Shown piece by piece: positions 10,661 through 57,078 of a stretch of 64,000 nt of DNA (the stretch's first letter is position 1; every line of letters begins with the position of its first letter). The notes beneath the pieces were generated by a model. It did no database searches, was not told the origin of the DNA, and was given only the letters and a program-made list of their open reading frames with translations. A program made the position numbers and the translations under genes. The stretch is from an uncultured Prochlorococcus sp. GTDB lineage: Bacteria; Cyanobacteriota; Cyanobacteriia; PCC-6307; Cyanobiaceae. The DNA is taken from assembly GCA_902536455.1 (NCBI GenBank), contig CACAXN010000005.1, positions 1-64,000 of the forward strand. The letters are read 5' to 3'.

Positions 10661-10779
10661 TTAAAAATCGATGTTATAAAAATTTTTTTTAATAATATTA
10701 TCAAAATTATAATCTTCAAGAATCTTTACTATTTTTGTACTTGCTCCTCCTTCACCATATGGATTAATTGTTTTTTTTT
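10661..10779 (-). other. out-of-frame C-terminal extension of neuC, beyond an A9 tract
   Basis: On the minus strand the neuC frame reads ESIKKNN and stops immediately after a run of nine A (plus-strand T at 10771-10779). Removing one A, or adding two, continues the frame for 36 codons as TINPYGEGGASTKIVKIL and onward to a TAA at 10661-10663. NPYG(D/E)G-x-AS is the conserved C-terminal motif of UDP-GlcNAc 2-epimerases, so this tail clearly belongs to neuC. The cause could be a real frameshift, RNA polymerase or ribosome slippage on A9, or a sequencing error in the homopolymer. Confidence 0.85.
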
Positions 10780-11819
10780 ATTGACTCTTGAAAATCATAT
10801 GAAAGTGCTTTTTTAATAGAATTCATAATTGATTCTTTTTCAGGATGACAATCAATAATAGAATCTGCTTTGATTCTTCCCTTTTGTCTATCTCCAATAT
10901 TAATTGTTGGTTTTTTAAATGAAGGCACTTCAATTATTCCGCTTGATGAGTTTCCTATTACTAAATCTACATGTTGAATGCATGAAAGATATCTTAATTG
11001 GCCTAAGGAGGTGAAGTATTTAGCATTTCTATTTTCTTGCGCAAACTTCTTAATCATCGAAAATAATATTCTTCCATGAGTATCTGAATTAGGCATGGTA
11101 AAAATGAAACCAGTTTCCTTAAATGAAGAAAGAGAATAAAATAATTGATTCATTTGTTCTTCGCTAGTATTAGATTCCAAAGTCACTGGATGAAAAGTGA
11201 TCAGAAAGTTTCTTTTTCTAAGCTTTAAATCTAGAGTCTCCTCTAATTCTTTTTTATCTAGAAGATTAAGTTTTAAAATATTATCAATACCTAAGCCACC
11301 AACATTAAAAACTGTATCAGGCTGCTCGCCTAATTGAATCACCCTTTTTTGATATACATGCGAGGCTACAAAATGAATATGGGACATTTTTGTAATGCTA
11401 TGTCTAATAGCTTCATCTATTGAGCCTTCTGTAGCTTCCCCGCCATGAAGGTGTGCAACTGGTATTCTTGCGACTAAAGCAGCACTTGTTACTGATAAAA
11501 TTTCGTATCTATCTCCAAGGACTAATAAAAGATCTGGCTTTAAATCTTCAAGGGCATCAGCAAAACTTATTAACCCTATACCCATTGACTTTGCAATACT
11601 TGCAGGGGTGTCTGAACTTAATATCATTTCTACTTTTTTATTAACTTTAAAATCATCATCTTCAATTTGTTTAATTGTCAAACCAAATTCAGGAGAGAGG
11701 TGCATACCACAAACGATTAAATTTAAAGTTAATAAATTTGACTTTTTTATCTCCTCCATTACCCATCTAAGCAATCCATATTCGGCTCTTGTGCCTGTAA
11801 CTACACAAATCTTTTTCAT
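10764..11819 (-). CDS. neuC: UDP-N-acetylglucosamine 2-epimerase (hydrolysing), NeuC/LegG type, frame broken near the 3' end
   Basis: Hydrolysing 2-epimerase that releases UDP and yields a ManNAc-type sugar (or its 2,4-diamino analogue in the legionaminate pathway) for condensation by NeuB. Visible are the N-terminal VVTGTRAEYGLLRWV, the stretch LVLGDRYEIL, HLHGGEATEGSIDEAIRHSITK and the UDP-binding region IGNSSSGIIEVPSF. The continuous frame gives 351 residues; the usual length is about 380, and the missing NPYG tail is found in the next frame down to 10661, which would give 385 residues. The start overlaps the neuB stop by four bases (ATGA), so translation is probably coupled. Confidence 0.9.
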   Translation of the reverse strand: MKKICVVTGTRAEYGLLRWVMEEIKKSNLLTLNLIVCGMHLSPEFGLTIKQIEDDDFKVNKKVEMILSSDTPASIAKSMGIGLISFADALEDLKPDLLLVLGDRYEILSVTSAALVARIPVAHLHGGEATEGSIDEAIRHSITKMSHIHFVASHVYQKRVIQLGEQPDTVFNVGGLGIDNILKLNLLDKKELEETLDLKLRKRNFLITFHPVTLESNTSEEQMNQLFYSLSSFKETGFIFTMPNSDTHGRILFSMIKKFAQENRNAKYFTSLGQLRYLSCIQHVDLVIGNSSSGIIEVPSFKKPTINIGDRQKGRIKADSIIDCHPEKESIMNSIKKALSYDFQESIKKNN

Positions 11820-12835
11820 AGGATAATTAAATCGTCTTTATTATATTTTTTTGTAGAGACCTTGCCGATTATTTCATCAATTAACATTGGAGATAAGCCT
11901 GTACCAGGTCTTTTAGTAGTAATATTTTCATAATTAAACTTTTCACCTATTTCAATTTGCCTTGAGGCAATAATAGATTTTCGAACTATAGCCCTAGTTT
12001 TAATCTCACTTATACTAGGGAATTTTCTAGTACTTCCTAGAGCCGTTTCTATATTCCTGATGCTATTAACCATTTTTTTAAATTCAGCTGGCTCTATACT
12101 TGCTTTATGGTCAGGCCCTTCCATTTCTCTATCTAGTGTTAAATGCTTTTCTATTATTCTTCCACCAAGAGCAACTGCTGCAATTGAAACTTCTATTCCA
12201 ATTGTGTGATCAGAGTAACCAACTTCTATGTCAAATGCATTTTTTATGGTTACCATAGATTGAAGATTTACATCTTCCATAGGTGTTGGATACTTAGTAC
12301 TACAATGAAGGACTTTGATTTGGGACTTTTTGCAACCATTAGATATTAAAACATCAATTGCAGTTTCAATCTCACCAAGCGTCGACATTCCAGTGGAGAG
12401 GATAGTGTCTTTTTTAAAACTACCAATTTGCCGTAAATAGGGAAGGTTAGTTATTTCACCGGAAGGTATCTTAAATAATTTCATGTTAAGAGAATTTAAA
12501 ATATTATTGCTTTCAAAATCGAACCCAGTTGACATGAACATTATCTTTTGATCATTAGCATATTGCATAAGTTCTAAATGTTGTTCATAATCGATTTCTA
12601 ATTTTTTGAGCATATCGAATTGGGAAGAAATATTCGGTAAATTCTTTTTTTGATACTCTGCAAGTTCAGCAACTCTAGTAACTATATTTTCTGTTTTAAA
12701 AGTTTGAAACTTTACAGCATCAGCTCCAGCTTTTGCTGCTTCTTTTATTAATCTTTTTGCTAATTTTATATCTCCATTATGATTAACTCCAGCTTCTGCT
12801 ATGACAAAAGTATTAGAAATTTTTTTAAAATTCAT
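11816..12835 (-). CDS. neuB: N-acetylneuraminate/legionaminate synthase (NeuB/LegI)
   Basis: Condenses phosphoenolpyruvate with the ManNAc-type sugar from NeuC to make the nine-carbon nonulosonic acid. The TIM-barrel domain begins FVIAEAGVNHNGD, with KFQTFKTE, STGMSTLGEIE, HCSTKYPTP and EKHLTLDREMEGPDH; the C-terminal SAF antifreeze-like domain is recognised in TTKRPGTGLSP. The ORF track starts 18 codons earlier, inside neuD; the ATG at 12835, one base after the neuD stop, is better because the family sequence starts there. The resulting 339 residues are normal for NeuB. Confidence 0.95.
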   Translation of the reverse strand: MNFKKISNTFVIAEAGVNHNGDIKLAKRLIKEAAKAGADAVKFQTFKTENIVTRVAELAEYQKKNLPNISSQFDMLKKLEIDYEQHLELMQYANDQKIMFMSTGFDFESNNILNSLNMKLFKIPSGEITNLPYLRQIGSFKKDTILSTGMSTLGEIETAIDVLISNGCKKSQIKVLHCSTKYPTPMEDVNLQSMVTIKNAFDIEVGYSDHTIGIEVSIAAVALGGRIIEKHLTLDREMEGPDHKASIEPAEFKKMVNSIRNIETALGSTRKFPSISEIKTRAIVRKSIIASRQIEIGEKFNYENITTKRPGTGLSPMLIDEIIGKVSTKKYNKDDLIIL

Positions 12836-12836
12836 T

Positions 12837-13451
12837 TTATGAGCTTTTATAAATTGTATTAGATGGGATGTTATGCATGACTTTTTCACCAGCAGAAACG
12901 ATCACTCTTTGACCAATATTTATACCTTGTTTAAGGATAGAGCCACTACCTATAAAACTTCCAGATCCAATATGAACATTACCGTTTACTATAGCTCCTG
13001 TTGAAATATGACAATGATCTCCAATTATTGAATCATGCTCAACAATAGAACCTGTATTAATTATGCAATTAAAACCTATTTCTGCTCCGGAATTTATTAT
13101 GGTGTTATGCATAACAATTGTTCCTTTTTTTATAGTTGAATTTGAGGATATAATTGAATTTTTTGATTTTATGGTAGCGATCTTTATAGACATATGTTCA
13201 AGCAAATTAAATAACTTTATCCTAATATTAGGGGATTTTATTTGACCAACACAAACCAAACCATAATCATTTTCTGAAATTAAATCTTTAAGTTGATCAT
13301 CAGATCCAAGTATTTTATATCCCATAAAATCTTCAAAAATTTTATTATTTTTATCAATAATTCCTTTTATTTGATATTTTCCAATGTTTTCAATTATTTC
13401 AATACAAGATTTACAATGTCCGCCAGCCCCAAGCAAAACTATATTTCTCAT
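12837..13451 (-). CDS. neuD: NeuD/LegH-type acyltransferase, left-handed beta-helix
   Basis: 204 residues. The N-terminal Rossmann-like part (IVLLGAGGHCKSCIEII) is followed by hexapeptide repeats, for example SGAEIGFNCIINTGSIVEHDSIIGDHCHISTGAIVNG, which form the acetyl-CoA-dependent transferase helix. Members O-acetylate sialic acid or N-acetylate the 4-amino sugar in the legionaminate and bacillosamine pathways. Next to a LegC-type aminotransferase, N-acetylation of UDP-4-amino-4,6-dideoxy-GlcNAc is the likelier role. The start overlaps the legC stop by four bases and its stop is one base from neuB. Confidence 0.9.
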   Translation of the reverse strand: MRNIVLLGAGGHCKSCIEIIENIGKYQIKGIIDKNNKIFEDFMGYKILGSDDQLKDLISENDYGLVCVGQIKSPNIRIKLFNLLEHMSIKIATIKSKNSIISSNSTIKKGTIVMHNTIINSGAEIGFNCIINTGSIVEHDSIIGDHCHISTGAIVNGNVHIGSGSFIGSGSILKQGINIGQRVIVSAGEKVMHNIPSNTIYKSS

Positions 13452-14605
13452 ACTAAATATGCACTGCTAGGTATATTAATAATACGATTTGAAAGCGATT
13501 GAGCAATAGGTAATGGGGCTTTAGGGCATTCTTTAAACATCTTAAGATTAGGAAGTAAATCCCAAGCTGGTCTTGTCATGATTCCATTATCATTCGTATA
13601 TTCAAGAATTTTTTCCAGTTCATTCTCTAACCCCCTATCTAATATCAGAGTTTGTAACCAATAATTACTTCTGCTAAAAGGTGGCTCTTTGAATAAGCTT
13701 ATTCCATTAAAATTTCTAAAAGCATCTTCATATTTAAAAAAAAGATTTCTTTTTGATTTACAAAAATCATCAATTTTTTTTAATTGCGCACATCCTAAAG
13801 CTGCATTAAGGTTTGGCATTCTGTAGTTGTAACCAACTTGATCATGAATATACCTCCATCGATGAGACAATTTTGCTGTACTTGTAATATGCTTTGCTTT
13901 ATTTGCAAGGTTAATATCGTTTGTAAGGATTACTCCTCCACCTCCAGTAGTAATAATCTTATTGCCATTGAAACTTAGGACTCCAAAATCACCAAAAGTA
14001 CCAGTGTGTCGACCATGGTAAAAACTTCCAAGAGATTCTGCAGCGTCTTCAACAACTGGAATTCCAAAGTTTTTAGCAATATCAATTATTTGAATAATTT
14101 CAGAAGGATGTCCAAAAGTATGCATTGGAACAATCGCCGAAATCTTTCTCCCAGTATTTTTATTAATTAAATTTCCAGCAATTTTTTCACAGTTTTTGTC
14201 AAGCCAATTTCCTAAAGATAAGGGATCTATGCCTAATGTTTTTTCATTGCAATCAACAAAATGCGGAATTGCATTAAGATAACTTATTGCATTTGCAGTA
14301 GCAACGAATGTTAAAGCTGGACAGATTACTTCTTCGCCTTCACCTACTCCAGACAATTTCAAAGCAACGTGTAATGCAGAAGTACCATTAACTACGGCTA
14401 TAGCTCTTTTACTTTTAGTGTAAGTTGCAATTTCATTTTCAAATTGATTTACATATTGGCCCACAGTTGATACGAAAGTAGATTCAATACACTTTTTTAG
14501 GTTTTTGACTTCTTCATCATTAAACCTTGGCTCATGAAGAAATTCTCTTTCGCTCATTAGTACAGATTTTATAATATCGGTTATTTTGATCCCAAAATCT
14601 CTCAT
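13448..14605 (-). CDS. legC: LegC-family sugar aminotransferase (DegT/DnrJ/EryC1/StrS)
   Basis: 385 residues. The sequence FLHEPRFNDEEVKNLKKCI, STFVSTVGQYVNQFE, VVNGTSALHVALKLSGV and PALTFVATANAISYLNA matches the LegC branch closely; the PLP lysine is in SFNGNKIITTGGGG and the conserved aspartate in VVEDAAESLGSFY. In the legionaminic acid pathway LegC aminates the 4-keto group of UDP-4-keto-6-deoxy-GlcNAc made by LegB. Its presence makes the cluster product a 5,7-diamino nonulosonate more likely than plain Neu5Ac. It overlaps neuD by four bases and follows the SDR by 24 bases. Confidence 0.92.
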   Translation of the reverse strand: MRDFGIKITDIIKSVLMSEREFLHEPRFNDEEVKNLKKCIESTFVSTVGQYVNQFENEIATYTKSKRAIAVVNGTSALHVALKLSGVGEGEEVICPALTFVATANAISYLNAIPHFVDCNEKTLGIDPLSLGNWLDKNCEKIAGNLINKNTGRKISAIVPMHTFGHPSEIIQIIDIAKNFGIPVVEDAAESLGSFYHGRHTGTFGDFGVLSFNGNKIITTGGGGVILTNDINLANKAKHITSTAKLSHRWRYIHDQVGYNYRMPNLNAALGCAQLKKIDDFCKSKRNLFFKYEDAFRNFNGISLFKEPPFSRSNYWLQTLILDRGLENELEKILEYTNDNGIMTRPAWDLLPNLKMFKECPKAPLPIAQSLSNRIINIPSSAYLV

Positions 14606-14629
14606 TTTTAAAAAGTATAAGTAAATTAT

Positions 14630-15616
14630 TTAATAAGCTTTTGTTTTAAAAACATTATTTAGATACCAATCATATGTCTTTTTTATACCAATTTCTAAAT
14701 CAGTTTCTCTTATCATACCTATTAATTTTGTAGTCTTTTCCATATTAGGAGCTCTTCGCATTGGAGAGCCAATCGTATTTTTCTCTTTCTTAATAATGAA
14801 TTTTTTACCAACAACTTTCCAACATATTTGAATTAATTCCTCAATAGAGATCTCGGGAGTCTGCACTCCTAAATTTAATGTTTTATTGATACAAGAGTCA
14901 TTAATAATTATTTTTTTTAAAATTTCAATAGCATCATCGATAAAGCAAAAACATCTCGATTGTTGAGACGATGCAACAGACATTACTTCCCCATTATTTG
15001 TTTCATAAGCTTTTTTTAGTTGTTCAGGAATTACATGAGACATCCCCATTCTTGGACCATAAATATTATGAGGTCTGAATATTATATAAGGCAAACCAGA
15101 TTGTATACACATAGTCTCACCGTAAATTTTAGATAACATGTAGCTTGTTCTTTTCCTAGTTAAAGAGTTAATTGATAATGGTGTATTTTCAGGAGTAGGT
15201 ATTTGCATTCCGAAGTTCTCAAGTGTTCCACTATATACTTCACTTGTAGATGCAAATAATAACTTAGATAAGTTTTTCTGAGCTTTTGAAAGTTTTATAA
15301 TATTATTTAGCATTACCACATTATTTTCTAATACGGAGTAAGGATTATTATTGACATGTTTTACACCTATAATTGCAGCTAGATGAATTATATAATCAAA
15401 ATCTTTATCTATTTGCATTACAGATAATAAATCCATGCAATTTACGTTTATAAATTGAACATTTTTTTTTGAAATTAATTTCTTAAGTAATGTATCTTTG
15501 TTACCTCTAATAAAGTTGTCCAAAATAACAACATTGAAATTTTCTTCGGAAAGAGATAATGCTAAAAAATAACCAATAAATCCTGCCCCTCCTGTTATGA
15601 GAACTTTTTTATTCAC
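14630..15616 (-). CDS. NAD-dependent nucleotide-sugar SDR (decarboxylase/epimerase-like)
   Basis: 328 residues, extended SDR. KVLITGGAGFIGYFLA binds NAD; the active-site segment reads FASTSEVYSG and the Tyr-Lys pair lies in YMLSKIYGE. The TSEVY pattern, rather than TDEVYG, resembles UDP-glucuronate decarboxylases more than 4,6-dehydratases. Paired with the upstream dehydrogenase (4-base overlap), it could decarboxylate or otherwise modify the resulting sugar acid. If it instead acts as the LegB-type 4,6-dehydratase that LegC requires, its active site is unusual. The family is clear, the reaction is not. Confidence 0.8.
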   Translation of the reverse strand: MNKKVLITGGAGFIGYFLALSLSEENFNVVILDNFIRGNKDTLLKKLISKKNVQFINVNCMDLLSVMQIDKDFDYIIHLAAIIGVKHVNNNPYSVLENNVVMLNNIIKLSKAQKNLSKLLFASTSEVYSGTLENFGMQIPTPENTPLSINSLTRKRTSYMLSKIYGETMCIQSGLPYIIFRPHNIYGPRMGMSHVIPEQLKKAYETNNGEVMSVASSQQSRCFCFIDDAIEILKKIIINDSCINKTLNLGVQTPEISIEELIQICWKVVGKKFIIKKEKNTIGSPMRRAPNMEKTTKLIGMIRETDLEIGIKKTYDWYLNNVFKTKAY

Positions 15617-17013
15617 AATCCATTCCCAACTCCTACAGATTGTAATTTTACACCATTATTCCTAAATTCATTTCGCTTTTTTTTGTCCCAAATCATAAAG
15701 CCATCAAGAATAACTGCATTTCTGTGTTTTGATAGCCATTTTGAGAGATCTAATTCTTTGTATTGTTTATGAGGCACTGTAAAAATTATGCCATCATAAG
15801 TATTAGGTCTTGGTAAAGTATTCTTTATTCTGATTTTTACTTCATCCCAATAATTTACTAAAGGATCATGACAATCAATATTTCCTCCTTCTTTCTTTAT
15901 CTCTTTAAAAATTAATTCAGCAGGTGAATATCTTGTATCAGCTACATTTTCCCTGTAACTTACACCGCAAATAAGTATATTTTTATTATTAAAACTTCCT
16001 CCTAATAATTCTCTCATTCTATTTACAGCGTGTAGAGGCATTTTTGATAATTCACGCAAGGCAAGTTTAGAAAAAGGGAAATCAAGATTTTCTTTAAGCA
16101 ACTCTTTACTTGCTGCTGGAGTAAATGCTGGGTCTTTAGTTAAACAATATCCACCTATCCCAATTCCCGGATATCTAATATTTTTGTGAGTTGGCCTTAT
16201 TTGGATAGCTTGAATAACTTCAAATAAATCTATCCCCACTTTTTCTGCATATCTCGTCCACTCTGCAATAAAAGCAATATTGACTGTTCTATAAGTGTTT
16301 TCTAATAATTTGGATGTTTCAGATGCAAGTGTTGATGATAATTTTGTTAAAGGATACTTTTTTGTATTAATAACTTTACTTAAAAATTTTTCGCAAGCCA
16401 ATGCAGATTCTTCATTAATACCTGAATATACGCGCCAAAAATTAATTATTGAATCATAATATTTCTCTCCAGGCATAACTCTCTCGTAGGAATGGGCTAA
16501 TTTGATTTTTTTTGGATCTAATCCTCTTTTAATAAAACATTCTCTAAGTATTGGCAAAACAATTTCACTGCATGTACCAGGAGGAACAGTAGTTTCTATA
16601 ATAACAAGACATTTTTCGTTTATGAAATTACCAATTGTATTTATAGCTTTCTTAAAGCCATCTAATTCTAATTTTGGCTCATCATTTTTAAATGGCATAT
16701 CAAGATGAATATCTACAACGACAATTTGAGCATTTTTAAATTCACTATTATCTGCAGATGCTCTAAAACTTTTATTCTTAATAGCTTTTTTTAAAAATTT
16801 ATTTAACTTTGGGTCAGTATTCCCAAATGGAAACATACCTGAATTTAATGCATTAATCCTATTAATTCCAATGGGACTTTTTAAATCTATTCCAACTACT
16901 TCAAAGTAATTTTTCTCTTGATGATCTAATGCATTTGATACAGCAATTGCCATGGCAGAACCAACAAAACCTAAACCTTGTATACATACTTTTTGCTTAT
17001 TATATTTTTTCAT
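15613..17013 (-). CDS. UDP-sugar 6-dehydrogenase (UDP-glucose/GDP-mannose dehydrogenase family)
   Basis: 466 residues. The NAD-binding motif is IQGLGFVGSAMA (residues 11-22), the central domain carries TTVPPGTCSEIV and LLENTYRTVNIAF, and the catalytic cysteine is Cys290 in GIGGYCLTKDP. It oxidises C6 of a UDP-hexose to the uronic acid in two NAD-dependent steps; UDP-ManNAc, UDP-GlcNAc or UDP-glucose are all possible. The family is not part of known sialic or legionaminic acid routes, so it probably makes another sugar for the same glycan. It overlaps neuA by four bases and the SDR by four bases. Confidence 0.9.
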   Translation of the reverse strand: MKKYNKQKVCIQGLGFVGSAMAIAVSNALDHQEKNYFEVVGIDLKSPIGINRINALNSGMFPFGNTDPKLNKFLKKAIKNKSFRASADNSEFKNAQIVVVDIHLDMPFKNDEPKLELDGFKKAINTIGNFINEKCLVIIETTVPPGTCSEIVLPILRECFIKRGLDPKKIKLAHSYERVMPGEKYYDSIINFWRVYSGINEESALACEKFLSKVINTKKYPLTKLSSTLASETSKLLENTYRTVNIAFIAEWTRYAEKVGIDLFEVIQAIQIRPTHKNIRYPGIGIGGYCLTKDPAFTPAASKELLKENLDFPFSKLALRELSKMPLHAVNRMRELLGGSFNNKNILICGVSYRENVADTRYSPAELIFKEIKKEGGNIDCHDPLVNYWDEVKIRIKNTLPRPNTYDGIIFTVPHKQYKELDLSKWLSKHRNAVILDGFMIWDKKKRNEFRNNGVKLQSVGVGNGL

Positions 17014-17699
17014 TTATTTATATTTTTATCGTATTTTATTTTAAGCTTTAATTCTGCTAACATCCAGTCATCCATATCATCAATATCGATCGATCTTTCT
17101 TTTGGCATAATATAGCCAAGAGTTTCAGAATTAATAAATTTTTTTTCTCTTTTATAAAATTCTGCATTACCTAAATATAAAGCACCGTTAATTACAAAAA
17201 CTTCAGATAAATCTTGCCTTCTAGTGACTTTTTCTTTATTGAAAATAGGTTGAATTATTTGTTTACTGTTTAACTCGTACATCCATGATGGATGTTTTGT
17301 GACTTTAGATATAGAGATACAGGATTCTGCATTATGCTTATGTTGTAATTCAATTATATTAAGAATATCATTAATTTCTCTAAGAGGAGATGTTGGTTGT
17401 AGGTATAAAATTTTTTTTGTCTCTGGAATCTTTTCCAGTAAATGCAGAATATTTGAAATTGCTGGACTCTCATCTAATGCAATTTTTTTTGGCCTTAAGA
17501 ATGGAACTTCAGCTCCATAATCTACTGAAACGTTTGCTATCTCATCATCGTCAGTTGAGACTATCACTCTATCAAGAGTTTTTGTTTCTAGTGCTTGTCT
17601 GATTGTCCAAGCTATGAGTGGTTTACCAAAAATTTCTTTGATATTTTTTCTTTTAATACCTTTTGAACCCCCTCGAGCAGGGATTAAACCTATTAGCAT
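17010..17699 (-). CDS. neuA: acylneuraminate (nonulosonate) cytidylyltransferase
   Basis: 229 residues. Activates the nonulosonic acid with CTP to CMP-NulO. The signature IPARGGSKGIKRKNI at residues 6-20 is diagnostic, followed by DRVIVSTDDDEIANV, PFLRPKKIA and LQPTSPLRE. It heads the seven-gene leftward operon neuA to neuC, in which consecutive genes overlap or lie within 25 bases. No sialyltransferase is in the operon itself; the best candidate in the window is the C-terminal half of the protein at 40073-41602. LegF and PseF are related, so the exact sugar is open. Confidence 0.93.
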   Translation of the reverse strand: MLIGLIPARGGSKGIKRKNIKEIFGKPLIAWTIRQALETKTLDRVIVSTDDDEIANVSVDYGAEVPFLRPKKIALDESPAISNILHLLEKIPETKKILYLQPTSPLREINDILNIIELQHKHNAESCISISKVTKHPSWMYELNSKQIIQPIFNKEKVTRRQDLSEVFVINGALYLGNAEFYKREKKFINSETLGYIMPKERSIDIDDMDDWMLAELKLKIKYDKNINK

Positions 17700-34847: not shown

Positions 34848-35615
34848 TTAATAATTAAGTACCTTTTTAATTAATTTTTGTTGAATAATATTCTCTTCAA
34901 TATATTTATAAACTTTATCTTGATCGCCTGGTTCATTAACTGATGGCAAAGTAGGTTCAACATTAACAGAAAATAAATCATAACCATAAGAAATAGTCTT
35001 CAACTGCTCAATTGATTCACTTATTTCTAAATTAGTTTGTTTTAATTTGCATAGAGTTAGTAACACTTCCCTCTTAAATGCTATTAAACCTAGAATTTTT
35101 CTGATGTAACCCAGACTATTTATATCTTCTAAAAAGGAAGGAGATCTTCTAAAGCAAAAAAGAATTTTATTCTTATCACCTACTGCACATTTAACAAAAG
35201 AATGTTTATTTAAATCTTCATTATTTAAAAGTTTGGATGTTGCATTCCAACTATCTAAATTGGGATTTTCCTTTATAGCTTTTACCATAGACTCTAGATG
35301 TTCTGGCAACATTAATGGTTCATCTCCTTGAATTATTACAACATGAGAAGCTTCTATTTCTTCAACTGCTTCAGCCACTCGAGATGTCCCAGAGATATGA
35401 TTATTTTTTGTTCTTATAACTTCGCCATTACATGAATTAACTATAGATGCAATTTTCTCGTCACCTGTAGCAACAATTACTCTATCAAAGACACCCGATA
35501 ATAAAGCCCTTCTTCTCACATGCTCAATCATTTCAAGTCCATAAAATTTTAAAAGTACTTTTTCTTCTAGTCTCACAGACGCTAAATGTGCAGGAATGAG
35601 AGCAACAATCTTCAT
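34848..35615 (-). CDS. kdsB: 3-deoxy-manno-octulosonate cytidylyltransferase-like (KdsB)
   Basis: Activates Kdo or a related 2-keto-3-deoxy sugar with CTP. Seen are IVALIPAHLASVRLEEKVL (family PAR-x-x-S-x-RLPGKPL, here altered at several positions), IVATGDEKIA, HISGTSRVAEAVEE and VIIQGDEPLM. The ORF track starts 11 codons earlier; the ATG at 35615 is right because it overlaps the upstream stop by four bases (ATGA) and begins the family sequence. 255 residues fits KdsB. The changed nucleotide-binding loop hints at a Kdo-like rather than standard substrate. Last gene of the leftward kds operon. Confidence 0.88.
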   Translation of the reverse strand: MKIVALIPAHLASVRLEEKVLLKFYGLEMIEHVRRRALLSGVFDRVIVATGDEKIASIVNSCNGEVIRTKNNHISGTSRVAEAVEEIEASHVVIIQGDEPLMLPEHLESMVKAIKENPNLDSWNATSKLLNNEDLNKHSFVKCAVGDKNKILFCFRRSPSFLEDINSLGYIRKILGLIAFKREVLLTLCKLKQTNLEISESIEQLKTISYGYDLFSVNVEPTLPSVNEPGDQDKVYKYIEENIIQQKLIKKVLNY

Positions 35616-36361
35616 TGAGGGAAAACACCACAATCTAAATTTATACATTGACCTGTAATTGCAGATGATTCTGCTGAAGCTAAAAACAAGACCATTTTTG
35701 CAACTTCATCTGCAATTGGCAGTCTTCCTAACGCTGATTGTGAGTTTCTGAACTTATTTAAAAAATCGTCTGGATCTGGGAATCCTGGTGCAGACTTTTC
35801 ATTTAGCGCCTTCATTAAGCCTTCAGTTTTTACAAGGACAGGGCAAATAGCATTCACTCTTATTCCTTTTGGGCCTAGTTCTTTTGCTAATGACTGAGTC
35901 AATCCATTCATCCCAAATTTAGTCGCAACGTAAGCGCTATTATTTGAACTCCCCCTTTTGCCAGCAATACTTGAAATATTAACTATAGAAGAGCCTTTTT
36001 CTAAAAAAGGAGCCGCAGACTGACAACCCCAAAAAGCCCCAAATAAGTTAACTTCAAAAATCCTTTGAATGAAAGATTCAGAAATATTTTCAATTGAGCG
36101 CCATTCAGAAAAACCTGCATTGTTCACATATAAATCAATACAATTAAAATTTTTTAGAGAAGTTTTTACTAATAAATCATGGAACTTAGGATCTGAAACA
36201 TCTCCCTTAACAAAAATCAAATTATCAGTATTACCGTCAAAAATTAATTCGCTCCTTCCACCAACGACAACAGAAAATCCATTGTTTAGCAAATGCTTAG
36301 TAATTGCTAATCCTATTCCTTTATTACCTCCAGTAATTATTGCATTTTTATTTTTGTTCAT
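35612..36361 (-). CDS. classical short-chain dehydrogenase/reductase
   Basis: 249 residues from the ATG at 36361; the upstream track start (MYDDID) lies in the previous gene's end. NAIITGGNKGIGLAI binds NAD(P), YVNNAGFSEW is the NNAG motif, SSIAGKRGSSNNSAYVATKFG contains the catalytic Ser, Tyr and Lys, and the tail ITGQCINLDCGV is typical. Oxidoreductase of a hydroxyl or keto group. It lies between another SDR and kdsB in one operon, so it probably modifies a 3-deoxy-ulosonic acid or its precursor. Confidence 0.85.
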   Translation of the reverse strand: MNKNKNAIITGGNKGIGLAITKHLLNNGFSVVVGGRSELIFDGNTDNLIFVKGDVSDPKFHDLLVKTSLKNFNCIDLYVNNAGFSEWRSIENISESFIQRIFEVNLFGAFWGCQSAAPFLEKGSSIVNISSIAGKRGSSNNSAYVATKFGMNGLTQSLAKELGPKGIRVNAICPVLVKTEGLMKALNEKSAPGFPDPDDFLNKFRNSQSALGRLPIADEVAKMVLFLASAESSAITGQCINLDCGVFPQ

Positions 36362-36363
36362 AT

Positions 36364-37152
36364 CTATATCGTCATACAAGAAAAACCACCATCAATTGCG
36401 ATTTCTGCTCCCGTAACAAAAGAGGAAGATTCAGAAGCCAACCATATAGAGCATCCAATTAATTCATCTGGAATACCGTATCTATTCATAGGTGTATGGT
36501 TAAGAATATCACTCTCTCTTTGTGGTGTTATGAAATTTCTTTTATTCCATTCTGTGGGGAAAAACCCTGGCCTTATTGCATTAACTCTGACTCCGTAGGG
36601 AGCCCACTCTCTAGCAAGATTCATAGTTAGATTTTTTATCCCTGCTTTTGCAACTGAATAAGCAAACGCTTTCGATAAGGGAGGTCCAGCTGAAGCAGAT
36701 GAAATATTAATAATAGAACCGTTTCCCTTCTCTACCATATGAACACCAAATACTTGGCAACAAAGCATAGTTCCAGTAACCTGCGAAGATAAAACATCAT
36801 TCCATTTCTCTTTTTCTATTTTAAAAAAAGGAGTTGGATCATTTATACCTGCTCCATTAATTAAAATGTCTACTGAATCATATCTTTCAATAATCTTTTT
36901 ATATGCTTCTTCAATACTTTTCTTATCACAAACATCAATTCCATATGAAAAAAATTTTTTACTTGTGATTGTTTCTATTTCTTTAGTTTTTAGTTCCGCG
37001 TTTGCAGGTCTTAAATCTAAAATCGCTAGTTCAGCGCCTGCATTTGCAAGTCCCTCCGCCATTTTGCTACAAAGATATCCTCCTCCACCTATAACAACCG
37101 CTACTTTTCCATTTAATCCAAATGTTTTATCCAGAAAATTTTTTACTTCCAT
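36364..37152 (-). CDS. classical short-chain dehydrogenase/reductase
   Basis: 262 residues. GKVAVVIGGGGYLCSKMAEGL is the cofactor motif, slightly unusual in having GGGGYLC for GGxxGIG; ILINGAGIND, ISSASAGPPLSKAFAYSVAKAG (Ser-Tyr-Lys) and FVTGAEIAIDGGF are standard. It is related to gluconate or 2-keto-3-deoxy-acid dehydrogenases. Two bases separate it from the second SDR and nine from the aldolase upstream. Two SDRs plus an aldolase next to kdsA/B/C suggest a modified ulosonic acid. Confidence 0.83.
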   Translation of the reverse strand: MEVKNFLDKTFGLNGKVAVVIGGGGYLCSKMAEGLANAGAELAILDLRPANAELKTKEIETITSKKFFSYGIDVCDKKSIEEAYKKIIERYDSVDILINGAGINDPTPFFKIEKEKWNDVLSSQVTGTMLCCQVFGVHMVEKGNGSIINISSASAGPPLSKAFAYSVAKAGIKNLTMNLAREWAPYGVRVNAIRPGFFPTEWNKRNFITPQRESDILNHTPMNRYGIPDELIGCSIWLASESSSFVTGAEIAIDGGFSCMTI

Positions 37153-37161
37153 AAATCCTTA

Positions 37162-37938
37162 TTATTTATTAGACAATATAATTCTTTTCATATCTAGAGC
37201 CCAATTTCTAAGAATAAACAAATCTGAAGACAAAATAATAAATGTATAACCATCGTTAAATAACTTATTTATAGTATTACTTTCAACTACTGATACCTGA
37301 GTCCCACAACTTTTATTATGCTTTTGACAAGCTTCAACAATTTTTTTACAAGCGTCTAAAACAATTGGGTGATCAACTTGACCAGGAAAACCATAAGAAC
37401 CAGAGAGGTCATATGGTCCAATCATAATCCCGTCAAGATCATCATTAGATACAATCTCATTAATATTATCAACGCCTTCTTTAGATTCAATCTGAGCAAT
37501 AAATATTGAATTTGCATTCCAAGCTTCTAAATACTCATCAAATGCAAGTCCATAGCCATGAGCCCTGTTAACACCGTATGTTCTTCTACCTAAAGGAGGA
37601 AACTTTAGATAACTCAGTATTTTTTCTACATCAGAATTACTATTTATCATTTGAACAATTAATCCATCAGCACCAGAATCTAAAAGTGGTTTAAAAAAAT
37701 CATTACTATGAGAAACTGGTCTTGGTAGACATGCTGTTCCATAAGCTTGAGCTCTGGCCATCAAGGATTGCGCAGAATCCAGACTAATTGGTGCATGCTC
37801 CATATCAATTCCTATAAAATCTAATCCAATCATTGAAAAAATTTCTGTAATGCCTGGATGATCAAACGAAATCCATCCCGCAAAAATTCTTTCTCTATTT
37901 CGTAACTTTATTTTTAAATTTTTTAAATTAACCGCCAT
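37162..37938 (-). CDS. HpcH/HpaI-type class II aldolase
   Basis: 258 residues. FAGWISFDHPGITEIFSMIGLDFIGIDMEHAP, LPRPVSH (for the usual VRVP), DSGADGLIVQMINS, RRTYGVNRAHGYG, IAQIESKEGVDNINEI and MIGPYDLSGSYG follow the HpaI/2-keto-3-deoxy-rhamnonate aldolase family, including the Glu and Asp that bind the metal. These enzymes make or break pyruvate-aldehyde bonds in 2-keto-3-deoxy acids. Placed among kds genes it could form or remove an ulosonic acid; the physiological direction is unknown. Cytosolic. Confidence 0.87.
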   Translation of the reverse strand: MAVNLKNLKIKLRNRERIFAGWISFDHPGITEIFSMIGLDFIGIDMEHAPISLDSAQSLMARAQAYGTACLPRPVSHSNDFFKPLLDSGADGLIVQMINSNSDVEKILSYLKFPPLGRRTYGVNRAHGYGLAFDEYLEAWNANSIFIAQIESKEGVDNINEIVSNDDLDGIMIGPYDLSGSYGFPGQVDHPIVLDACKKIVEACQKHNKSCGTQVSVVESNTINKLFNDGYTFIILSSDLFILRNWALDMKRIILSNK

Positions 37939-37967
37939 TAAATATATTTAAAAAAACTTTAAGAATT

Positions 37968-38390
37968 TTATATTAGAGCTTTGACGACAGGATGTAAATG
38001 AACAAGTCCAATAATTTTACAGTTAACATCAGTAACTGGTAAATCCCATATTTTCTTACTTTCCATTAAATCAAACGCCCTTGTAAGTTTTTCTGAAGGA
38101 TCAATTGATATGAATTTTTTTCTAGAAACATCTATCGTATCTTCCATAAATAATTGACCTAATGGTTTTTGCTCTTTCAAAAGCAATCTACGAAAATCTC
38201 CATCTGTAAAAACTCCAGTTAGAACATTTTTTGGATTTACAATACACGCTATACCAAGTTTGAATTGATTCATTTTCTCAAGAGTTTCTTTTAAAATAAG
38301 TTTCTCTTGAACTATGGGAAAACTTTCAAGATTAAGCATAATATCTTTTACAAGGATATTATTATCTTTTGTGAACATTATCTTCACCAT
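37968..38390 (-). CDS. CBS-domain pair resembling the C-terminal half of KdsD/KpsF
   Basis: 140 residues forming two CBS motifs: VKDIML...LKETLEKMNQFKLGIACIVN...LTGVFTDGDFRRLL and TIDVSRKKFISIDP...LTRAFDLMESKKIWDLPVTD...IIGLVHLHPVV. In arabinose-5-phosphate isomerases (KdsD/KpsF) such a pair follows an N-terminal SIS isomerase domain; that domain is missing here and no SIS gene is seen in the window. The frame starts 29 bases inside kdsA (or 17 from the ATG at 38378). It may be a regulatory subunit, or a split-off remnant. Kdo synthesis would need an isomerase elsewhere in the genome. Confidence 0.78.
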   Translation of the reverse strand: MVKIMFTKDNNILVKDIMLNLESFPIVQEKLILKETLEKMNQFKLGIACIVNPKNVLTGVFTDGDFRRLLLKEQKPLGQLFMEDTIDVSRKKFISIDPSEKLTRAFDLMESKKIWDLPVTDVNCKIIGLVHLHPVVKALI

Positions 38391-39234
38391 AAATATTTTG
38401 AAGTTCCATTTTTAAATTATGAAATGCCTTTGCATGTGTCAAAATAACCTCTAAATATTCTAAGTCAAGAACAGTATTAGAATCTGATAATGCTTTTGGA
38501 GGATCATCATGAACTTCCATAAATAATGCATTAATTCCGCAAGCTGCAGCGGCTCTCACTAGGTTAGGAATATACTCTCTTTGACCACCAGAAATATTTC
38601 CCATAGATGTTGGCAATTGAATTGAGTGCGTAGCGTCAAAACATACAGGATAACCTGTTGATTTCATTATTGGCAAACAAGTCATGTCATTCACGAGTTG
38701 ATTGTATCCAAAAAATGTACCCCTATCAGCCAACAAAATCTCATTGCATCCAAAAGACTCTAATTTTCTAACAGAATTTTTCATATTCCATGGACTCATA
38801 AATTGGCCTTTTTTTAGATGAATAGGTCTTCCTGTTTCAGCCGCTGCTCTCAGAATTGAAGTTTGTCTGCATAAATAAGCTGGGACTTGGACAAAATCAC
38901 AAACTTTGCCAGTATCTTTAGCCCATTCCACTTCAGAAAAATCAGAAATTACTGGTATATTAAATTCTTCTCTAACTTCACTAAGTATTTTTAGACCTCC
39001 TTCTATACCTACACCATGAAAGCTATCGGGCGCTGAACGGCAATCCTTGTCATAACAGGACTTAAAAATCCAGGGAATTTTTAATTTTGAGCATATTTTG
39101 TCTATCAAATTGGCCATCTTAAAACTATGTTCTTTAGATTCAATTGCACAAGGACCACCAATAAAAACTAAAGGTTTGTTTTCTCCTATACAAACTTTTT
39201 TAACATTTCCATAACCTACATTAATTTCCTTCAT
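38362..39234 (-). CDS. kdsA: 3-deoxy-8-phosphooctulonate synthase (KdsA)
   Basis: 290 residues. VFIGGPCAIES, FKSCYDKDCRSAPDSFHGVGIEGGLKIL, PAYLCRQTSIL, HLKKGQFMSPWNM, LADRGTFFGYNQLVNDM and FDATHSIQLP follow the family from end to end. It joins phosphoenolpyruvate and arabinose 5-phosphate to Kdo-8-phosphate. Kdo is generally not found in classical cyanobacterial LPS, so its presence in this island is notable. It could also make another 2-keto-3-deoxy sugar phosphate. The gene is followed by the overlapping CBS protein and preceded, after about 105 bases, by kdsC. Confidence 0.95.
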   Translation of the reverse strand: MKEINVGYGNVKKVCIGENKPLVFIGGPCAIESKEHSFKMANLIDKICSKLKIPWIFKSCYDKDCRSAPDSFHGVGIEGGLKILSEVREEFNIPVISDFSEVEWAKDTGKVCDFVQVPAYLCRQTSILRAAAETGRPIHLKKGQFMSPWNMKNSVRKLESFGCNEILLADRGTFFGYNQLVNDMTCLPIMKSTGYPVCFDATHSIQLPTSMGNISGGQREYIPNLVRAAAACGINALFMEVHDDPPKALSDSNTVLDLEYLEVILTHAKAFHNLKMELQNIYGEDNVHKR

Positions 39235-39339
39235 TTAAATATATATTGATTTAATTAATGATTATTTAAAAATATATTATAAGAAGCATTACTAAGTAAA
39301 ACATCACTTAATAAAGTCTAAATATGATTTTCTAATTTA

Positions 39340-39885
39340 TTAATTAGAAGTTTCAAATGGTTCTAAAGGATTAATTTGTAAAGAAGTAAGCAATTTATCT
39401 GTAAATTCTCTCACAAAACCTTTCCCTCCTGGTTTCAAACCCACCCAACAGGCTTTGTCCTTACAAGCATAATGAGCATCAGAGGGCGTCAGAAACATTC
39501 CTACTAAGGGGATAACTGGCAGATCGTTTATATCATCTCCTAAAAATACAGTTTCTAATTTACTTAAATTCAACTCTTCTTGAATTTCCTTAATAGCAAG
39601 TAATTTATTTTTTACTTTAGTTTTTACATAATGAACATCTAATGATTGAGCTCTTTTTATTATGGCTTGTCTATCACCTCCAGATATCCAAGCAATTTTA
39701 AAATTATATTTTTGCAATAGCCTAATTGCCATACCATCCTTCACATCAAATTTAATTGATTGGTTCCCATTATCATCAATATAAATACTTCCATCGGTAA
39801 GTACACCATCGACATCCATACAAATAAGTTTTAAATAAGAGCACCTTTTTTTAAAAATTTCTTTCTTATTTTCAGCATTAATCAC
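39340..39885 (-). CDS. kdsC: 3-deoxy-manno-octulosonate-8-phosphatase (KdsC), HAD superfamily
   Basis: 181 residues. LICMDVDGVLTDGSIYID carries the HAD nucleophile Asp and general acid Asp; IAWISGGDRQAII supplies motif II, VKNKLLAIKE the lysine and FLGDDINDLPVI the metal-binding motif III. Removes phosphate from Kdo-8-phosphate. It is the first gene of the leftward kds operon (kdsC, kdsA, CBS, aldolase, two SDRs, kdsB). The 187-base gap upstream is shared with the divergent fusion gene and must contain the promoter. Confidence 0.92.
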   Translation of the reverse strand: MINAENKKEIFKKRCSYLKLICMDVDGVLTDGSIYIDDNGNQSIKFDVKDGMAIRLLQKYNFKIAWISGGDRQAIIKRAQSLDVHYVKTKVKNKLLAIKEIQEELNLSKLETVFLGDDINDLPVIPLVGMFLTPSDAHYACKDKACWVGLKPGGKGFVREFTDKLLTSLQINPLEPFETSN

Positions 39886-40072: not shown

Positions 40073-41602
40073 ATGTTCAAAATAGAACAGTATCCATTCA
40101 AACATATTGTAGAGGACAATTTCCTAAAAAACGAAGATTTTGTGAAAATCAAAAATCGACTTCGTAAGTTAATAGACAATTCTAAATTTGAAAATAACAA
40201 AAGTGGTGTTATTTATAATCAAGCTAGAATTAGTTTCCCAGACAAAAAGGTTATAAGAGAATCATCAATATTGTCTAATAAAGAACTTCTTGATTTTTAT
40301 TCGCGATATGTCCCAAAGATGTTGAATCATTTGAAAATAATTTCGCCTAATAAGATTAATTTATTTGACACTTTTTCTTTTCAAGTAAGTAGAACTGATA
40401 AAAATATCACTTACCCTATACACGACGACTCATCGGAAAAGTTACTAAGCATAGTAATTTATCTAAGCCCACAGAATAACATTGGTACATATCTCTATCT
40501 TCCAAAATCGAATAAACCAGACAAATTAGTCGATTGGAGACCAAATAGATATCTTGCCTTCTCAAGAATAGAAGGCAAGACAAGACATTCATATCAAGGC
40601 AATAAATTAGAAAATAGATATACAATAATTTTGAATATTTTAACCTCAAAGAAAAATTATGCTCGCTGGATAGAACCAGGATATAAAGGTAAATTAGAAG
40701 CAACAAAAATATATTTAAAAGAAGTATGTTTTAAATTAAAGGAAATCTATTCATATATGATTTATAGTAAAAATTTAATCAATTCAACATCTAAGCACTT
40801 TTTACTAAGGAAATTAAACAAAAGAACTTCGTCAATAAATCGCAAGCATATAATAAATACACTTAATGATTTAAGAATAAATAAAAAAACTGATGAACTT
40901 AATTTTATAGGTTCAGGAAAATCTGCTTTGAAAGCTATTAATAAACTTGGAAATAATGATGTTATTATAGGTGGCAATTTTTCCTGCCTTCTCCCTATCT
41001 ATCACGACATTTACTTTACTGAATGGTGCGGAAAGCAGCATTATAAAATCCTTCCAAAAGTAAGAGAGATTTACTCTAAAAGATCAAAATTCATGAATCA
41101 CTTGATCATGAAAAATCTATCCAGTAAATTTAATTCTTTGCCATTAGATCAAAAATATTCACTGACTAGTAAATATCTTTATGAAGCTTCTATTCCAATT
41201 ATTTCAGAAAAGCAATTGCGTTTTTTTATTAAACAAAGTTTAAATAATAAAAATAAGTTTATTTGTCAGTCTTCTTCTTCAACAATAACTGCTATTTTTT
41301 TGGCTTATCTAGGTGGATTTAAAAAAATAAATCTATACGGAGTTGACTTTGGAGGAGGATATTTTTGGGATTCTGAAGAATTCAAAACAAACACATCTGA
41401 CATAATGATGATGCCAGATTCTCCCATAAGAGGATATAAATATGGATCAGTTAACCTTTATCCAAAACCCAAATCATCAATTCCTTCTAATCATGCAACT
41501 GAGTTAGCTATTATTCCTGTAAGCAAAATTATTGATACTTTAAAAGTGTATTTCAAAGATCATGGATTTGTAATTAACAATATTTCCCAGAAAAATAAAT
41601 AA
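40073..41602 (+). CDS. two-domain protein: 2OG-Fe(II) oxygenase-like domain fused to a sialyltransferase-like (GT42/DUF115-type) domain
   Basis: 509 residues. The first 200 have the outline of a 2OG-Fe(II) oxygenase: His117-x-Asp119 in YPIHDDSSEK, His172 in TRHSYQG and Arg182 in ENRYTIILNI. After a basic linker, residues 275-500 look like a Rossmann-type glycosyltransferase: LNFIGSGKSALKAI, VIIGGNFSCLLPIY, DIYFTEWCG, then CQSSSSTITAIFLAYLGGFKKINLYGVDFGGGYFWD. This order resembles Campylobacter Cst-type sialyltransferases (GT42) and DUF115 proteins. If right, it could transfer the CMP-nonulosonate or CMP-Kdo made in the island. The resemblance is judged by eye. It ends 41 bases before lexA, tail to tail, at the island edge. 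Confidence 0.6.
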   Translation: MFKIEQYPFKHIVEDNFLKNEDFVKIKNRLRKLIDNSKFENNKSGVIYNQARISFPDKKVIRESSILSNKELLDFYSRYVPKMLNHLKIISPNKINLFDTFSFQVSRTDKNITYPIHDDSSEKLLSIVIYLSPQNNIGTYLYLPKSNKPDKLVDWRPNRYLAFSRIEGKTRHSYQGNKLENRYTIILNILTSKKNYARWIEPGYKGKLEATKIYLKEVCFKLKEIYSYMIYSKNLINSTSKHFLLRKLNKRTSSINRKHIINTLNDLRINKKTDELNFIGSGKSALKAINKLGNNDVIIGGNFSCLLPIYHDIYFTEWCGKQHYKILPKVREIYSKRSKFMNHLIMKNLSSKFNSLPLDQKYSLTSKYLYEASIPIISEKQLRFFIKQSLNNKNKFICQSSSSTITAIFLAYLGGFKKINLYGVDFGGGYFWDSEEFKTNTSDIMMMPDSPIRGYKYGSVNLYPKPKSSIPSNHATELAIIPVSKIIDTLKVYFKDHGFVINNISQKNK

Positions 41603-41620
41603 TTTTCATTATATTGATTA

Positions 41621-41645
41621 AAAGTTATTAAACTTTAAAATTTTT
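41621..41645 (+). terminator. weak candidate terminator between the fusion gene and lexA
   Basis: A 6-bp stem (AAAGTT / AACTTT) with a 4-base loop at 41621-41636 is followed by AAAATTTTTA. AT-rich and short, so only a weak candidate; it is placed between two convergent genes. Confidence 0.25.
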
Positions 41646-42261
41646 ATAGTTTTCTCCAAACAGCTAAAAGTTTGCCTTGCAAAACAACTTCTTCAGGATT
41701 AAGAACAATTGGATCGTATGAAACATTAGCAGCTTCCAAGAAAACTTTTCCATTCCTTTTAAAAAAGTATTTCAAAGTTGTTCCCGAACCAGCTACCATC
41801 GCACTTACAATTGTTCCATTCCTTAGAGTGCATGAATCTTTAATTGGCTCCATCAAAACCATATCTCCATCTGCAATACATGCATCTATCATGGAATCTC
41901 CATTCACTGTAAGAGCAAAAACATTTTTCTTTTTTAAAACATCAGAAATATCTAAATTCTCCTGAACATCTGAATAAGTTTCAATTAAGCCACCAGCTGC
42001 GACTGAACCCATTATTGGGACCCCTTCTATAATTTGATCAACAATTTGCATAGTTCTAGCTTTGCCTTCTTGCCAAGATATATATCCTTTTTCTTGTAAG
42101 TGTTTTAAACGACTTTGAATTGGAGCGGGAGATTTAAGACCCATGGCTTTCATCATTTGCCTAATCGAAGGACTGTGTTGGAAGTCTCTCATGTAGTCCT
42201 TTATCCATGCATAAAGCTCATTTTGAGCATCCGTAAGATTATTGCCCTCAAAAGTTGCCAT
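41644..42261 (-). CDS. lexA: LexA repressor
   Basis: 205 residues. The N-terminal winged-helix DNA-binding domain ends near residue 75 (FQHSPSIRQMMKAMGLKSPAPIQSRLKHLQEKGYI), and the C-terminal S24 peptidase domain has the Ala89-Gly90 cleavage site (SVAAGGLIE), Ser123 (NGDSMIDACIADGD) and Lys164 (TTLKYFF). All elements for RecA-stimulated self-cleavage are present, so it should be an SOS-type repressor. Two LexA-like boxes lie directly before its start codon, pointing to autoregulation. First gene on the core side of the island. Confidence 0.95.
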   Translation of the reverse strand: MATFEGNNLTDAQNELYAWIKDYMRDFQHSPSIRQMMKAMGLKSPAPIQSRLKHLQEKGYISWQEGKARTMQIVDQIIEGVPIMGSVAAGGLIETYSDVQENLDISDVLKKKNVFALTVNGDSMIDACIADGDMVLMEPIKDSCTLRNGTIVSAMVAGSGTTLKYFFKRNGKVFLEAANVSYDPIVLNPEEVVLQGKLLAVWRKL

Positions 42262-56331: not shown

Positions 56332-57078
56332 TTAGTTCAAAAGTTTTCTCCTTACAAATTTATTTGTCAAGGCAGTAAATTTTGGTTCTCTTTTGAACTG
56401 TCTTTGATATAAGTTCGTATTTAAAAACCATTTTCTTGAAGGATTTAACTGCATCATGATTAGGTTAGTTTTATTACCATCTTTTGGAACGCCTGCTTTG
56501 TGTGAACAGACGTTCAATTTGCATAAAAAAATATCTCCTAAATCTCCGACTAAATATTGTATTTTTTGCTTAATATCGATTAATTCTAAAGGTCCATCAT
56601 TCATCCCAATTTCAGACATTGGAATAAATATTTTTAACATATTTCTGCTATTTGGTTTATCTAAATGATAGTGATTAGCATACCAAGCTTGGTCTATATC
56701 TTCTTGCGTGATAGGAAAATTCTGGTAAGCCCCAAAAAAATCAATACTATATTTAAATCCAGTCAGTGAAGTTAAGAATTTACAAAATTGTTTATCAAAA
56801 ATCAATTTAATAATTGAGTTCAAATTTTCTTGACTTAAAATAAATTTTTTTTGATATTTATTTGAATTAAAACTCAACTCGTAATCATTTAAAACAAAAT
56901 CAAACCTTAGTTTTGAAATATTTAGTTCACTTTTACTTGTAATTTTAAGAAATCCATCTCTTTCAAAAGGAAGTTTAGATTTGATATTTCCTCTTAAAAA
57001 ATAATTTTCTAAACTTGTGCATACTTGAGAGTAAAAAAGACAAGCAATTTCATAGATTTGTTTATAAAAAAAATTCAT
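56332..57078 (-). CDS. phytanoyl-CoA dioxygenase-like 2OG-Fe(II) enzyme
   Basis: 248 residues. The likely iron ligands are His138-x-Asp140 in NHYHLDKPN and His193 in CSHKAGVPKDG; FIPMSEIGMNDGPLELI and VGDLGDIFLCKLNVCSHKAG follow the PhyH family. The arginine that normally binds 2-oxoglutarate is replaced by or shifted to Lys203 (GNKTNLIMMQL). Target unknown. It is flanked by 170 and 144 bases of non-coding DNA between ispF and trmD, and its AT-rich, Asn/Lys-rich composition resembles island genes, so it may be an accessory insertion. Confidence 0.7.
   Translation of the reverse strand: MNFFYKQIYEIACLFYSQVCTSLENYFLRGNIKSKLPFERDGFLKITSKSELNISKLRFDFVLNDYELSFNSNKYQKKFILSQENLNSIIKLIFDKQFCKFLTSLTGFKYSIDFFGAYQNFPITQEDIDQAWYANHYHLDKPNSRNMLKIFIPMSEIGMNDGPLELIDIKQKIQYLVGDLGDIFLCKLNVCSHKAGVPKDGNKTNLIMMQLNPSRKWFLNTNLYQRQFKREPKFTALTNKFVRRKLLN

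Follow-up and report, generated by a model that had tools for sequence, protein, structure and literature searches.

LH3 combines a 2-oxoglutarate (2OG) oxygenase with a glycosyltransferase, and the Kdo dioxygenase KdoO depends on Fe(II) and 2OG for its activity. In mimivirus, a 2OG hydroxylase is likewise joined to a glycosyltransferase in the lysyl hydroxylase-glucosyltransferase L230 (PMC9546862), and KdoO is known as the dioxygenase which modifies Kdo in the LPS of Burkholderia (PMC5462993). Among transferases using CMP-activated sugars, His188 of the GT42 enzyme CstII has been assigned the role of catalytic base (PMC4202792), and transferases of the Maf type can use CMP-Kdo (PMC11339370). 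The LPS of marine Synechococcus analysed so far is free of Kdo (PMC4515613). Here, we describe a gene of Prochlorococcus, P0001, in which a 2OG-Fe(II) oxygenase is fused to a GT42/DUF115-like transferase, and on balance we lean slightly towards reading its product as a two-headed (bifunctional) surface-glycan enzyme, which would transfer a CMP-activated Kdo-like sugar and add a hydroxyl to the product or else to the acceptor.

The fusion gene and its oxygenase half

P0001 occupies 40073..41602 on the + strand of the window, by which we mean the whole 64,000-nucleotide stretch of DNA analysed. The initial annotation had proposed a gene here, and 40073-41602 is indeed a single uninterrupted frame of 509 aa, the opposite strand of which is full of stops. 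The genome carrying it is 63% complete in 41 contigs, and it is the only one, itself incomplete, in which the fused form was found. The join lies within residues 212-226 (40706..40750, +), at which homology to a separate oxygenase gene gives way to homology to a separate transferase gene.

The N-terminal half, residues 1-216 (40073..40720, +), was assigned to the 2OG-Fe(II) oxygenases through a fold match, a profile and the separate homologue gene. The HxD iron motif is formed by His117 and Asp119 (40421..40429, +), followed by the distal His172 (40586-40588) and the 2OG-binding Arg182 (40616-40618), both within 40586..40618 on the same strand. These four residues had been named at exactly these positions in the initial annotation, and they are invariant in all aligned homologues (those of Prochlorococcus sp. 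AG-424-P18 and of the genome G771, and two viral proteins). In a profile search, phrog_274 matches residues 11-195 with an E-value of 2e-5; its library label, "DNA endonuclease V", was not relied on. The Pfam model 2OG-FeII_Oxy_3, which represents one subfamily and does not define the 2OG-Fe(II) oxygenase superfamily, scored 18.1 against a curated cut-off of 27 bits and thus stays below it. The jelly roll, whose presence had been set beforehand as a test, is found in a structure model built with three homologues (pLDDT 76, pTM 0.75), and Foldseek matched this model to solved oxygenases, the best being PolD (E 8e-9) and the next mostly prolyl hydroxylases of the HIF type, with TM-scores of about 0.5. 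By domain identity, the N-terminal half is a 2OG-Fe(II) oxygenase, with a double-stranded beta-helix, an iron triad and a 2OG-binding Arg. Elsewhere in the window, a 248-aa protein at 56332-57078 (-) has no Pfam match, and by eye it carries an HxD (YHLD) and SHKAG; it is possibly a phytanoyl-type oxygenase.

The transferase-like half and its distant relatives

Profile comparison, motifs and a separate homologue gene all point to a GT42/DUF115-like domain in residues 220-505 (40730..41587, +). Comparison with CstII (GT42) gave 57% with an E-value of 1e-4, and comparison with three cyanobacterial DUF115 proteins gave 63% with an E-value of 7e-5, the match spanning 32-39 columns in most comparisons and 87 in one. 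Among the controls, none of 64 unrelated proteins of the window exceeded 3.4% and none of 200 shuffles of the CstII sequence exceeded 2.8%; the CstII sequence used agrees with PDB entry 2x61 without mismatch. In both comparisons the core motif is in register, which bears out the SxxST... pattern of GT42/DUF115 type noticed earlier in this half. The core motif SSSST...GFKKINLYGVDFGGGY, located by profile comparison and alignment, covers residues 400-430 (41270..41362, +), and its part SSSST...LAYLGGFKKINLYGVDF (residues 400-426) recurs with hardly a changed letter in the homologue from AG-424-P18. In the alignment, GSGKS (residues 280-284; 40910..40924, +) sits where GT42/DUF115 proteins have their GNGPS loop, and Ser402/403 and Tyr430 stand at or near the places of Ser132 and Tyr162 of CstII. 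In a joint alignment, GSGKS, Asn302, Ser402/403, Asp425, Tyr430 and His474 all fall at or near GT42/DUF115 motif places. His474, which lies in SNHATE (41492..41494, +) and is conserved, is by its position a candidate for the catalytic base of the putative transferase.

Searches with family models gave a more distant picture. The DUF115 model MptE-like (PF01973) matched the C-terminal half with an E-value of 0.0037 and 17.5 bits against a cut-off of 34.6; the GT42 model CST-I (PF06002) is absent among the Pfam matches of P0001 up to an E-value of 10, and Glycos_transf_N (GT30, KdtA/WaaA) is absent among its Pfam matches. No curated family cut-off was reached by this half in the model searches, and for the GT42, DUF115 and 2OG families together the profile searches returned the matches to 2OG-FeII_Oxy_3 and MptE-like but nothing above a cut-off. 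The structure model of the C-terminal half is too poor for use (pLDDT 36) and a fold search with it returned nothing below an E-value of 1, and because of this the Rossmann-type, GT-A-like fold of GT42 is, for this half, one that we infer. The initial annotation's fusion of an oxygenase-like with a sialyltransferase-like domain is thus borne out in part, for the N-terminal jelly roll and for the C-terminal motif and profile. Judged by its sequence, the C-terminal half is probably a divergent GT42/DUF115-like transferase of an acidic surface sugar.

Two distant relatives of the transferase were found, one (28% identity, E 2e-5) at locus L033 with a CMP-sugar synthetase and the other at locus L032 with a CMP-sugar synthetase and NeuB, both loci being of the CMP-nonulosonate type. 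Plain protein searches of genome contigs, viral contigs, plasmids and phages returned weak phage oxygenases only, a search of 386 cyanobacteria returned chance frames only, GT42 and DUF115 family-model searches among relatives added nothing close, and when viral sequences were scanned with profiles of the transferase and the oxygenase, no close copy came up. In phages, the top matches to the oxygenase half are weak (E 0.3 and 1) and adjoin phage genes annotated as KdsA and KdsB; the hypothetical proteins next to these phage oxygenases are by eye not GT42-like. In cyanophage S-SCSM2R (L038:16919-21337), KdsB and KdsA lie next to two 2OG oxygenases. We treat this phage neighbourhood of oxygenase, KdsA and KdsB as a lead only.

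The two halves as separate genes in a relative

In Prochlorococcus sp. AG-424-P18, both halves are present as two separate genes, a homologue reached only through a DNA pattern search for the core motif GFKKINLYGVDF. The oxygenase gene (L026:6195-6920) encodes 241 aa with 62% identity to the N-terminal half, and the transferase gene (L026:9971-10861), on the same strand, encodes 296 aa with 65% identity to residues 220-505. The pair thus resembles P0001 in both domains and in its site, where lexA and the ornithine carbamoyltransferase gene are again its neighbours; it differs in consisting of two genes of like orientation, and the stretch of about 3 kb that separates them contains an HMGL-like aldolase, a KdsB-type CMP-sugar synthetase and a HAD phosphatase. 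The lexA-type repressor gene (41644..42261, -), convergent with P0001, is the conserved neighbour by which the site is recognised in AG-424-P18 as well as in a third genome, G771, where a contig end carries an oxygenase homologue of 34% identity not far from this lexA. There (L025:7706-9983), the oxygenase adjoins a 584-aa protein that is by eye an FAD-dependent flavoprotein. A close copy of either half occurs in only two of the 266 genomes of the genus, that of P0001 and AG-424-P18. Divergence from the AG-424-P18 copies is similar for the oxygenase half (dN 0.30) and the transferase half (dN 0.27), and pN/pS values of 0.33 and 0.32 show that both are under purifying selection. The closeness of the separate genes in AG-424-P18, about 3 kb from each other, suggests that a single surface glycan is the target of both halves; it may be one bearing a hydroxylated Kdo-like sugar. 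The best explanation of the fusion is that it joins two genes which, in the relative, are held apart and flank a CMP-ulosonate cassette.

Sugar cassettes around the gene

Directly upstream of P0001, and divergent from it, lies a block of genes on the - strand (34848-39885). It begins, across a 187-bp spacer, with a KdsC-type phosphatase (39340..39885; TIGR01670, 131.9 against a cut-off of 106.95), followed by the Kdo-8-phosphate synthase KdsA (38362..39234; TIGR01362, 326.7 against a cut-off of 314). Family-model matches identify the next four genes as a CBS-domain protein similar to the C-terminal part of KdsD (37968..38390), an HpcH/HpaI (GarL-like) aldolase (37162..37938), a mannonate-oxidoreductase-like SDR oxidoreductase (36364..37152) and another SDR oxidoreductase (35612..36379), all on the - strand. 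The protein at 37968-38390 (-) consists of CBS only, without the SIS isomerase domain of KdsD. The block ends with a KdsB-type CMP-ulosonate synthetase (34848..35648, -), and since its score does not reach the cut-off of the kdsB equivalog model, the sugar made may be other than Kdo. A KdsB-type synthetase adjoins the oxygenase-transferase pair in both genomes, and the remaining cassette genes differ. In AG-424-P18, a 522-aa HMGL-like aldolase (L018:10645-12213) adjoins a KdsB-type synthetase, and together they may lead to another CMP-ulosonic acid.

The window further contains a nonulosonate cluster of the legionaminate type (10764-17699, -) with NeuC, NeuB, NeuD, LegC, a LegB-like protein, an NDP-sugar dehydrogenase and a PseF-like synthetase. 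The initial annotation took P0001 for the missing transferase of both the CMP-nonulosonate and the CMP-Kdo-type sugars. The second part is favoured by the CMP-Kdo-type cassette directly upstream and by the search for a KdtA/WaaA-type domain, which found none in the P0001 genome (63% complete) or in AG-424-P18 (incomplete). The separate genes of AG-424-P18 tie the enzyme to the adjoining KdsB-type cassette and not to the nonulosonate cluster, which lies about 22 kb away from P0001.

Possible function and origin of the fusion

The donor, the acceptor and the order of the steps are what we infer from this setting. The adjacent cassette containing kdsA, kdsC and kdsB would make a CMP-activated 3-deoxy-ulosonic acid, a Kdo-like sugar. 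The C-terminal half, as a GT42/DUF115-like inverting transferase with His474 as its likely base, would move the Kdo-like residue from CMP onto a surface glycan or protein, and the N-terminal half would use Fe(II) and 2-oxoglutarate to hydroxylate the same product after transfer. By analogy with KdoO acting on Burkholderia LPS, the newly placed Kdo-like residue would be the most likely target, and the acceptor a less likely one. We favour this reading because both halves have separate, syntenic and similarly diverged copies in one relative, a KdsB-type synthetase stands beside the pair in both genomes despite their differing cassettes, the oxygenase half has a jelly roll and conserved HxD/H/R residues, the profile match of the other half is far above its controls, its two distant relatives adjoin CMP-sugar synthetases in nonulosonate-type loci, and KdtA/WaaA was not matched in either genome. 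What counts against it is a C-terminal half with neither a cut-off match nor a usable model, whose profile match spans 32-39 columns in most comparisons, a KdsB that stays below its equivalog cut-off, and a fusion found in one incomplete genome.

The persistence of the pair alongside differing sugar cassettes disfavours an oxygenase strictly matched to a single sugar, and it keeps alive another reading, in which the oxygenase acts on the acceptor and the new hydroxyl is where the transferase attaches its sugar, in the way that lysine is modified by LH3 and mimivirus L230. A shared acceptor would fit a pair retained while its donor cassette was swapped, L230 is a proven architecture with such logic (PMC9546862), and most of the nearest folds of the N-terminal half are prolyl hydroxylases. 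However, the fold with the lowest E-value, PolD, does not belong to a prolyl hydroxylase, the nearest precedent in bacterial glycans is the hydroxylation of Kdo by KdoO (PMC5462993), and an acceptor protein or peptide is not evident near P0001; we consider this reading unlikely, though deserving some weight. The fusion may instead be an artefact of amplification or assembly, a deletion chimera of two neighbouring genes. Its occurrence in one fragmentary genome would agree with this, as would the arrangement in the relative, whose same-direction genes are placed as a deletion join requires. Yet the join preserves the frame and nearly whole domains, deletion alone leaves unexplained why a different cassette flanks the oxygenase on its outer side, and contamination at family level was detected in just one single-cell genome of a marine survey, although such a survey is blind to small rearrangements (PMC11247762); we regard an artefact as improbable. 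The least probable of these alternatives is that the halves are functionally unrelated and were joined, with neutral effect, when the island was rearranged. Such islands undergo frequent reshuffling and the fusion is rare, both of which suit such an origin, but the similar purifying selection on both halves speaks against it, and so does the fact that they travel together in the only two genomes with close copies.

For the bifunctional enzyme that we prefer, the fusion and its separate-gene counterpart indicate which oxygenase partners which transferase. A Kdo-type cassette stands here beside a dedicated fused enzyme despite the Kdo-free LPS of the marine Synechococcus analysed, and the surface glycans of such a cell plausibly face phages and grazers.

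Comparison with known systems

LH3 and mimivirus L230 resemble P0001 in carrying a 2OG oxygenase and a glycosyltransferase on one polypeptide; they differ in their domain order, their collagen substrate, their UDP-sugar donor and a transferase of an unrelated family. The earlier view that a protein which both hydroxylates and transfers a sugar would be new was too strong, since LH3 and mimivirus L230 (PMC9546862) precede it; such proteins already exist, and what is new in P0001 is the pairing of these two families, together with the gene-pair evidence. That oxygenase and CMP-ulosonate transferase function as a single unit, a two-headed glycan enzyme of a new class, which would make a Kdo-like sugar in hydroxylated form in a lineage with marine relatives whose LPS core is free of Kdo, is a suggestion that we make with considerable doubt. 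KdoO is also a dioxygenase that hydroxylates Kdo (PMC5462993), but it is free-standing and acts on the LPS core, and its likeness to P0001 is one of description. With GT42 (CstI/CstII) and DUF115/Maf (PF01973), P0001 shares the glycine-rich first motif, the Ser-rich segment, the placement of Tyr and His in the alignment, the core motif G-x-x-x-I-x-L-x-G-V/I-D and, through its two distant relatives, an association with loci of the CMP-nonulosonate type. Unlike these families, P0001 lies below every family cut-off, has GSGKS in place of GNGPS, is fused to an oxygenase, and has a KdsB-type enzyme as its nearest synthetase.
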